A DNA stretch of 64,000 nucleotides. It comes from Hydrocarboniphaga daqingensis. Its GTDB lineage: Bacteria; Pseudomonadota; Gammaproteobacteria; Nevskiales; Nevskiaceae. Under the pieces are notes generated by a model that did no database searches, had not been told where the DNA came from, and saw nothing but the letters and a program-made list of their open reading frames with translations. Position numbers and translations under genes: made by a program. Of this stretch, positions 24,716 through 27,673 are shown in pieces. The stretch is from the NCBI RefSeq assembly GCF_900129825.1, contig NZ_FQWZ01000005.1:248001-312000 (forward strand), given 5' to 3'. Positions within the stretch are counted from its first letter, which is position 1. Every line of letters begins with the position of its first letter.

Positions 24716-27673
24716 ATGTCCTCATTGTCATCGTGGCGCACTGCACGCCGTCATCGTCTGCTACTTGCCGCCGGCCTGGCGGTATCGGCGGTCCCGAGCG
24801 CCGCCGATGCGGTACCGGCGCGTCCAGCGGCAACGGCTGCCGAAGCGCTGCAGATGCTGTCGCTGAACACGGCTGGCCAGCTGACCCGCAACCAGCGACT
24901 CAACGATTCCTACGCGACCGTGCAGAGCGCCGCGCCCGGCCGAGTGCTGATGGCCGATGGAGCCGCCAGCACGCCGTTGCAGCGCGCGCAAAACTTTCTG
25001 TCGATCTACGGTGCAGTGCTCGGCGTCCAGGACCCGATTGCCGAACTGCGCCAGAAACGCTTGACCCGCGACGCGGCCGGCGCGAGCCATGTCCACCTCG
25101 ACCAGTATTACCGTGGCTTGCCGGTGTACGGCGCCCGAGTGGTCGTGCACATGAACGACCAGGGCATCACCGGTACCAATGGGGTCTTCCTCAAGGATCT
25201 GGCGCTGTCGACCACGCCGCAGATGAGCGTCGCGTCGTTGCGCGACCGCGCACTCGCCGCTGCCCGCAAGCTGCATCCCGACGCCGACTTGGCCGTGGAA
25301 TCGTCACGACTGATGATTTACCGCAGCGGCTTGCTGAAGGGCGTCGAGGGCAAAGACTTCCTGGCCTACGAGGTGATCGTGCGCGGCGCAGCCGGCGCCG
25401 CCGTGCGCGAGCGGGTGATCTTGAACGCGAACACCGGCGCCGTGCTGAACCGGATCAATGAAATCCACGCGGTCCTGAACCGCGCGATCTACACCCCGAC
25501 GATGGACGTGCCGCCGCTGCTCACCGAAGGCAGCCTGCTGGCACCGGCCGACCCCGAGTTTCAAGGCGACACCAAAGGGAATCCGGCATCGCGCCGCGGC
25601 CTCGACCTGCCGACCAACAATCTGTACATCTTCGCTGGCGGCACCTACAACCTTTACAAGAATCTGTTCGGTCGCGAAGGCTATGACGACGGCGCCATCG
25701 AGGCGGCCAACCAGATCCAGCGCAGCGTGTATCTGGTCAATCAGAACTGCCCGAACGCGTACTGGGACGGCACCTCGACCAACTACTGCCCCGGCTTCGA
25801 CGCGGACGATGTCGTCAGCCACGAGTGGAGCCACGCATACACCGAGTTCACGCACGGCTTGGTCTACCAGTACCAGTCAGGTGCATTGAACGAGAGCTAC
25901 TCGGACATCTTCGGCGAGATGTATGACCTCGTGAACGGGCTTGAAGGCCCGCTGGGCGTCACATTGACCGAGGGCACCACCTACAACAATCGCGGCAGCC
26001 GCTGGGTCGTCGGCGAAGACCTAAGCGAAGTGGCCGCTGCGATTCTGCTGCGCGACATGTGGGACCCGGACACGTTCCCGACCCCATCACCGGGCAGCGT
26101 CATTACGTCGGAAAACTACTACTGCGACACCGGCGACAACGGCGGCGTGCACACCAACTCGGGCGTGTCGAACCACGCGTTCGCGATGCTGGTCGACGGC
26201 AAGGAGTTCAACGGCCGCACGATTCCTGCGATCGGCCTGATCAAGGCCGCGCACATCTACTTCCGCGCCGAGACGGTGTATCAGACGCCGACGACCAACT
26301 ATCCGCAGCACGCCGATGCGATCGAACAGTCGTGCAGCGACTTGATCGGCATGCCACTGAACGACGTGTTCGGCAAGGTATCCGACCAAGTCATCACCGC
26401 GCAGGATTGCGCGGCCGTCCGTGAAGCAACGCTGGCGGTCGAGTTCCGTAACACCGAGACGACCACCGTCGCACAGAAGTGCGGTTACGTTCCCGTGCTG
26501 CAGCCCGAAGCGTCCACGCCTGCCCTTTGCCCGACCGGCAAGTTCCCGACGGCAACGTTCAGCGAGAACTGGGAGTCGGGCGCGATTCCGTCGGGCTGGA
26601 CCACGGCGCATCTGACCACCGGTGATACGACGCCGGCCGTCTACGACTGGCAGATCAGCAGTGCGCTGCCAGCGCCGCATTCCGGCAAGGCAGCGTTCGC
26701 GATCGATGAAACCGGCGGAACCTGCGCCGCCGGCGGCGATATCTCGGGCTCGTTCTGGCTCGACTCGCCTGAACTCGATGTGCCCGACGATGCCAGCTAC
26801 CTGAGCTTCACCCACTTCATGCAGGCCGAGGCCGGCTATGACGGCGGCAACCTGAAGTACAGCGTCAACGGCAGCGAGTTCGCCATCGTTCCGCAGGACG
26901 CATTCACCTATAACGCCCACAGCAGCACCTTCACCGACGCGCCGCTGATACCGGGCATCCCGGACCCCGTCGGCCTGGGAGGTAACAACACCAGCCCGTT
27001 GGCGGGCCAGGCTGCGTGGTCGGGCGCCGATCAGGGCGAGGCCACCGGCAGTTGGGGAACCACGATCGTCGACATTGCCAAGCTTGGCGCTGCCAAGGAC
27101 GCGAAGATCAAGTTCCGCTGGGAGTTCGGCAACGATGGCTGCGGTGGCAACGTGGGTTGGTTTGTCGACGACCTCAGCCTGGGCTTCTGCTCGCTGACGG
27201 CGCCCGTCAACACGGCGCCGATCGCCAGCCTGGTGGCCAGCATCGTCAGCGGCACGGCGCCGCTGACGGTGAACTTCACGATGTCCGGCACCGATGCCGA
27301 TGCCGGCGACCGCGCCGCCGGTTATCGCCTCGACTTCGGCGATGCCACGCCGTCGGCGACCGGCGACTTCGCCAGCGGCGCTAGCAGTGCCGCCGTCACC
27401 CACACCTACACGACGGCCGGCACGTTCGCGGCCAAGCTGACGGTGATCGACAGCAAGGGCCAGGTCAGCGCGATCAACGCACGAACGATCACCGTATCCA
27501 GTAGCAGCGGCGGTGGTGGTTCCAGTGGCGGCGGCTCCGGTGGCGGAACCGGCGGCGGCAGCACGGGTGGCGAAGTTCCCGTCACGCAGAACAGCGGCGG
27601 CGGTGCGCTTGGCGCCACGCTGCTGCTGCCGCTGCTCGCCGGATTCGGACTGCGCCGGCGCCGGCGCGCCTAG
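24716..27673 (+). CDS. Secreted M4 (thermolysin-like) metalloprotease with PKD domain and GlyGly-CTERM tail
   Basis: A 985-residue exported protease. Signal peptide about 1-32; FTP/PepSY-type propeptide to about 260. The catalytic domain has zinc motif HEWSH (369-373), the third ligand Glu393 in [11 protein letters not shown] and the catalytic His479 in [14 protein letters not shown], all as in thermolysin. From about 610 to 830 there is a beta-sandwich region resembling MAM or jelly-roll modules ([12 protein letters not shown] to [12 protein letters not shown]). A PKD domain follows (about 845-935), then a Gly/Ser linker. The tail is a GlyGly-CTERM anchor: GGG motif, hydrophobic stretch [13 protein letters not shown] and RRRRR. 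It stands alone on the plus strand between eno and pyrG, interrupting conserved order. Confidence 0.93.

Follow-up and report, generated by a model that had tools for sequence, protein, structure and literature searches.

In the 64,000-nucleotide stretch of Hydrocarboniphaga daqingensis DNA analysed here (the window), a gene for a metalloprotease lies between eno and pyrG, and the protein that it encodes ends in a candidate GlyGly-CTERM sorting tail. The locus raises two questions: whether the protease is handled by rhombosortase and the type II secretion system (T2SS), and how its gene came to stand in this place.

A tailed M4 protease between eno and pyrG

The protease gene lies 210 bp from eno and 226 bp from pyrG, and its base composition (GC 0.657, GC3 0.836) is similar to that of both neighbours. 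The features of the locus are as follows.

23225..24505, minus strand: eno (enolase), from Pfam
24506..24715, no strand: divergent eno/protease gap of 210 bp, with one promoter-like site inside
24716..27673, plus strand: M4 metalloprotease gene (P0001) with GlyGly-CTERM tail, from the 985-aa ORF and Pfam
24716..24811, plus strand: putative Sec signal peptide, about residues 1-32, from the translation judged by eye
25043..25165, plus strand: FTP propeptide motif, residues 110-150 (PF07504, E 4.3e-11)
25628..26350, plus strand: M4 catalytic domain, residues 305-545 (PF01447 and PF02868)
25820-25834, plus strand: HEWSH motif, residues 369-373, from motif position
25889-25906, plus strand: NESYSD motif, residues 392-397, from motif position
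from 26135, plus strand: DNGGVH motif, residues 474-479, from motif position
26549..27193, plus strand: MAM-fold beta-sandwich domain, about residues 612-826, from the model, Foldseek and VIA-align
27209..27496, plus strand: PKD domain, residues 832-927 (PF18911, PKD_4, E 6.4e-11)
27497..27595, plus strand: Gly/Ser-rich linker, residues 928-960, from reading the sequence
27596..27670, plus strand: GlyGly-CTERM tail (glycine motif, hydrophobic helix, arginines), residues 961-985 (TIGR03501)
27900..29567, minus strand: pyrG (CTP synthase), from Pfam

A scan for promoters and terminators returned one promoter-like site (0.4 expected), at 24579-24550 on the minus strand upstream of eno, and five terminator-like sites (2.4 expected), with none of the latter in the gap between the protease gene and pyrG.

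An earlier, sequence-only reading of this DNA had called the product an M4 protease, and that assignment holds. The 985-aa protein passes the Pfam cut-offs for the FTP propeptide, Peptidase_M4, Peptidase_M4_C and PKD_4, with 37.5 bits for PF01447 and 103.6 bits for PF02868 placing it in peptidase family M4, and the HEWSH, NESYSD and DNGGVH motifs are all present. An alignment of 11 homologs shows no variation at H369, E370, H373, N392, E393, D397, D474 and H479; of these, H369, E370, H373, E393 and H479 are, by comparison with thermolysin, presumably the catalytic residues. Thermolysin structures align to residues 296-551 (E 3.7e-36). The window protein thus has its catalytic domain and FTP propeptide in common with thermolysin and other M4 proteases, but the thermolysin match leaves out its C-terminal MAM-fold domain, PKD domain and sorting tail.

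A MAM fold between the enzyme and the PKD domain

The full-length structural model was poor (mean pLDDT 62.4) and was left out of the fold comparison; residues 600-830 were modelled separately, with a mean pLDDT of 87.6. This domain model matched human meprin beta residues 260-426 over 150 residues (Z 14.5, rmsd 2.7), and its other structural matches, at Z 10-13, were to reelin repeats, gingipain adhesin domains and carbohydrate-binding modules. No Pfam MAM family matched the window protein at E≤0.001, and one ortholog gave Reelin_subrepeat-B (E 0.002) and InhA-like_MAM (E 0.0099), both sub-threshold. Of the MAM-like, PKD and GlyGly-CTERM parts that had been proposed for this protein, the PKD domain and the tail therefore stand, and the MAM part stands by fold but not by sequence family. 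Meprins, which are astacin-type zinc proteases and so belong to a family other than M4, also carry a MAM fold beside a zinc-protease domain; at 19% identity between the MAM part of the window protein and meprin beta, the likeness is one of analogy only.

The GlyGly-CTERM tail is retained in nearly all homologs

TIGR03501 scores the tail at 16.8 bits against a cut-off of 15.5 (window positions 27596-27664, about residues 961-983 of 985). At the default E-value this model gave no match anywhere, the 14 control genomes included. At E≤10 it gave six matches in the own genome, three of them above the cut-off, and matches in 11 of the 14 control genomes, with only one control genome above the cut-off. 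An NCBIfam hmmscan at E≤1 did not report TIGR03501 for the window protein, probably owing to filters. Because a GlyGly-type tail is recognisable by eye at the end of 24 of the 25 homologous copies, and at least 10 of the 25 (the window protein included) score above the cut-off, we regard the tail as more than a chance match. In a genome of the same genus, G009, the homolog (L047:4248-7061), which is 73.7% identical to the window protein across the shared part, has a different domain at its C terminus and lacks the GlyGly-CTERM tail. Given that G009 encodes both the protease and a rhombosortase, the enzyme does not require the tail.

All six TIGR03501 matches in the own genome fall in proteases (one M4, three M36, one M12B-like and one S8), and a check for further GlyGly-CTERM proteins accordingly yielded five candidates besides the window protein, two of them above the cut-off; in the S8 protein the match sits about 30 residues ahead of the C terminus. 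NF038111, the rhombosortase-dependent M36 family, resembles the window protein in joining a metalloprotease to GlyGly-CTERM, and part of the MAM region matches it weakly (23.6 bits, residues 695-823); however, its peptidase family is different, and 23.6 bits is far below the 1700-bit cut-off, which leaves the window protein outside that family.

On contig C2 of the own genome (L071:2850-8834), a 1994-aa M36 protease carries eight K319L-like PKD matches together with a GlyGly-CTERM tail that scores below the threshold (12.8 bits). Records labelled Stagnimonas sp. (L078 and L082) contain a tandem protease gene pair with a tail on each copy, and these tails match those of G057 and G056.

Rhombosortase and type II secretion genes accompany the protease

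Since GlyGly-CTERM tails are known to be processed by rhombosortase, which is linked to type II secretion, the sequence-only reading had predicted that the genome encodes both this enzyme and a T2SS, and both were found. One rhombosortase of 207 aa exceeds the TIGR03902 cut-off (152.3 bits against 84). Its gene is divergent from gspG. Among the components scored at this locus, GspG, GspH, GspJ, GspK and GspL are above their cut-offs and GspM is below its own. GspD (565.6 bits) and GspE (672.6 bits), both above cut-off, are encoded side by side on another contig, with ORFs at the gspC and gspF positions beside them (by eye only). The lack of a rhombosortase had been named as an outcome that would overturn the proposal; with a rhombosortase, T2SS genes and further GlyGly-CTERM candidates all found, it was not overturned on this count.

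Across the order, rhombosortase scores above cut-off in 64 of 85 genomes, against none of the 14 controls. By family, the counts are 56/58 in the own family (f1), 0/1 in f2, 1/1 in f3, 3/4 in f4, 4/4 in f5 and 0/17 in f6. GlyGly-CTERM scores above cut-off in 63 of the 85 genomes and in 1 of the 14 controls. By a hand count, 57 of the 85 genomes have both, 7 rhombosortase only, 6 GlyGly-CTERM only and 15 neither (Fisher p 2.8e-7, a value that is too kind because the genomes are related). Among the genomes that carry the protease, 22 of 23 encode a rhombosortase above cut-off; in G062, an 88% complete genome, the tailed protease is present and such a rhombosortase is absent.

The rhombosortase gene lies beside gspG

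In all 64 rhombosortase loci of the order (raw count), the rhombosortase gene divergently adjoins the T2SS pseudopilin gene gspG. The spacing between BLAST matches is within 170 bp in 63 of the 64, with 818 bp in G025, and fabD lies on the rhombosortase strand within the stretch in 63 of the 64; the locus of the own genome (L001) is at contig C10:121319-121771. In a class-wide draw, rhombosortase was above cut-off in 126 of 369 genomes. The other orders were represented by 90 loci, one per genome, from 124 such genomes, comprising the 30 best-scoring and roughly 60 that ranked below them; for the top 30 the flanks extended only 1.5 kb, and some of the others reached contig ends. Within these limits, gspG lay next to the rhombosortase gene in divergent orientation, no more than 453 bp away, in 33 of the 90 loci (21 family codes; raw count), near in a different layout in 3, and absent from the stretch in 54.

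The gene link in 64/64 loci of the order and in 33/90 from other orders is the ground for a tentative proposal, to which we give somewhat less than even credence, that rhombosortase is in effect a T2SS component. A divergent promoter region would then be common to it and the pseudopilin operon (gspG onward), and tail-tagged cargo, the window protease among it, would be matured in step with pseudopilus production. The available portion of Haft and Varghese 2011 describes the co-occurrence of rhombosortase with the T2SS and its adjacency to single targets, and does not mention gspG (PMC3237569). A literature search over titles and the starts of abstracts, mostly in open-access journals, returned no paper treating rhombosortase beside gspG.

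The protease occupies a variable slot in an ancestral gene cluster

With a homolog criterion of E≤1e-30 across the 85 genomes of the order, the protease occurs in 23 genomes at 25 places: in 16 of the 58 genomes of f1, three of f4 and four of f5, with no homolog at this threshold in f2, f3 or f6. When GTDB r220 contigs were scanned with two peptide patterns, relatives turned up at 22 loci, of which four belong to records from other phyla. By eye, one of these four distant homologs (L091) ends in a helix without the glycine motif and another (L092) has no helix; the other two (L093 and L094) yielded no complete ORF.

The sequence-only reading held that the protease breaks a conserved pyrG-eno pair on the opposite strand. 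Its place and strand are as described, but the bare pair is not the ancestral arrangement: outside f1, kdsA and eno were found together, 63-300 bp apart, in 26 of the 27 genomes (G078 gave no match), and the trio pyrG-kdsA-eno is therefore taken as the ancestral neighbourhood. Within f1, the protease lies inside this cluster in 11 of 58 genomes, which span 4 of the 12 genera and make up 11 of the 16 f1 carriers (G000, G006, G008, G009, G017, G021, G039, G041, G043, G045 and G047), and elsewhere in G053, G055, G056, G057 and G059. As it is found at the same place in this many genomes and genera, the gene pair was not broken recently. Comparison of the interval across relatives also answers the objection that the gene might be ancestral at this position in the whole order, which fails in its strict form: among the seven carriers outside f1, the protease is in the cluster in none and elsewhere in all. 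The protease is thus not newly inserted here, nor is this its ancestral place in the order.

Other f1 genomes carry different cargo in the gap, for example Lnb_N-type and DUF3015 proteins (G007), a Castor/Pollux-type channel protein (G049), SLBB export and Wzz proteins (G059), an M20 peptidase (G038) and an Asp/Arg hydroxylase (G042). Given these unrelated genes in the interval of relatives, we regard it as a variable slot. The best explanation is that, in its own family, the pyrG-kdsA-eno cluster has a permissive gap which the protease gene has long occupied, and that its position beside eno is probably without functional meaning. The pyrG/kdsA-eno interval is filled by unrelated genes, and not by the protease, at L046, L056, L057, L058, L059, L060, L061 and L062.

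In the window genome, kdsA itself is on contig C13 (L072:4991-5887), away from the pyrG-eno cluster. The encoded KdsA is 46-50% identical to the pyrG-linked KdsA of relatives and 74-76% identical to the inverted KdsA of G039, G041, G042 and G048, and the PRK12457 model is passed by the own KdsA and that of G041 and failed by that of G009. From these sequence similarities, kdsA was probably swapped for a different type in this genome, a replacement that would have left the protease adjoining pyrG. In a midpoint-rooted protease tree of 27 rows, which includes two long branches for the outgroup, the pyrG-linked label has to change twice. We argue no direction of transfer from it, because such a tree is compatible with a single origin.

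A probable surface-held protease and its alternatives

The likely product of the gene is an M4 zinc protease that depends on rhombosortase, is exported by the T2SS and is held at the cell surface. This reading rests on the tail above cut-off, the tails of 24 of 25 copies, the rhombosortase in 22 of 23 protease genomes, the association of GlyGly-CTERM with rhombosortase across the order, the T2SS genes, the conserved active site and the finding that the other GlyGly-CTERM candidates are proteases as well. By analogy with VesB, the putative signal peptide would direct the proenzyme through Sec and the C-terminal helix would retain it in the inner membrane, where rhombosortase would cleave at the glycine motif and the new C terminus would be joined to a phosphoethanolamine-type moiety, possibly lipid; the T2SS would then carry the protease onto the cell surface. 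The propeptide would be removed, and the MAM and PKD domains may bind substrate or space the enzyme off the membrane.

The closest precedents are in Vibrio cholerae. For VesB, the available portion of one report describes rhombosortase processing and a phosphoethanolamine-type attachment at the new C terminus (PMC6219818). VesB and other V. cholerae GlyGly-CTERM proteins, as far as the available text describes them (PMC6219818, PMC13393428), have a disordered linker and the tail in common with the window protein, which would likewise be a secreted protease with a putative Sec signal, and rhombosortase and T2SS genes are present in V. cholerae and in the window genome alike. However, VesB is a serine protease, whereas the window protein is an M4 protease with MAM-fold and PKD domains, and processing has been demonstrated for VesB and is predicted for the window protein.

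HapA belongs to the M4 family. According to the available portion of a second report, GlyGly-CTERM fused to HapA kept it at the surface, partly retained on cells (PMC13393428). The resulting HapA-GG (HapA with the VesB tail) resembles the window protein as an M4-family metalloprotease with a GlyGly-CTERM tail, but it is a hand-made chimera (PMC13393428), whereas the window protein comes from a naturally occurring gene and has MAM-fold and PKD domains placed between its enzyme part and its tail. A literature search of the same scope (titles and abstract starts, mostly open-access journals) found no paper treating a GlyGly-CTERM protease of these genera.

The main rival to this reading is that rhombosortase serves efficient export only, and that a later cut in the linker or loss of the C-terminal domain frees the enzyme as an exoprotease. 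Among V. cholerae proteins, VesC is released through self-cutting in its linker, and HapA loses its C terminus (PMC13393428); the long Gly/Ser linker of the window protein and the entirely tail-less homolog of G009 would also suit a released enzyme. We nevertheless think this unlikely, given that 24 of 25 homologous copies keep the tail and that HapA with GlyGly-CTERM partly stayed on cells, as described in part in the same source (PMC13393428). It is more doubtful still, and in our view improbable, that the tail is a plain C-terminal membrane helix that is never processed and holds the protease in the inner membrane facing the periplasm. A hydrophobic helix followed by arginines would alone suit such an anchor too, but the glycine motif scores above the TIGR03501 cut-off, and rhombosortase is present in 22/23 protease genomes and in 0/17 of f6, the family without a protease homolog. 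Several observations also count against the surface-held reading itself: the tail exceeds the cut-off by just 1.3 bits, one of 14 control genomes exceeds it as well, G009 has protease and rhombosortase without a tail, G062 has a tailed protease without a rhombosortase above cut-off in an 88% complete genome, and in seven genomes rhombosortase occurs but no GlyGly-CTERM protein was detected, with the reverse in six.

A recent mobile insertion of a foreign protease between pyrG and eno seems very improbable. The gap holds other genes in relatives and so accepts DNA, and presence in the family is patchy (11/58); against this, the gene has the same place in 11 genomes of four genera, and GC and GC3 equal to those of eno and pyrG show nothing foreign in base composition. 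We give equally little credence to the protease being a predation factor against other bacteria. Nothing was found in its favour except the probable surface status of the protease, and the interval loci examined contain no contact-killing genes, although this is a weak test. Of the surface-anchored predatory or scavenging proteolysis that had been suggested, scavenging is plausible, and no evidence of predation was found.

Read as a surface-held protease, the enzyme is a fairly ordinary representative of an established system rather than a new kind of protein, and its likely use would be the digestion of outside protein close to the cell, which would keep the peptides from being lost. Three features give the finding moderate interest. 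The enzyme is a natural M4 protease with a GlyGly-CTERM tail, a combination that was recently engineered in HapA-GG. The conserved rhombosortase-gspG neighbourhood offers a genetic handle on the tie between rhombosortase and the T2SS, which the 2011 survey, in its available portion, describes as co-occurrence (PMC3237569). The window species and G009 provide a ready natural comparison between held and released forms of one enzyme.
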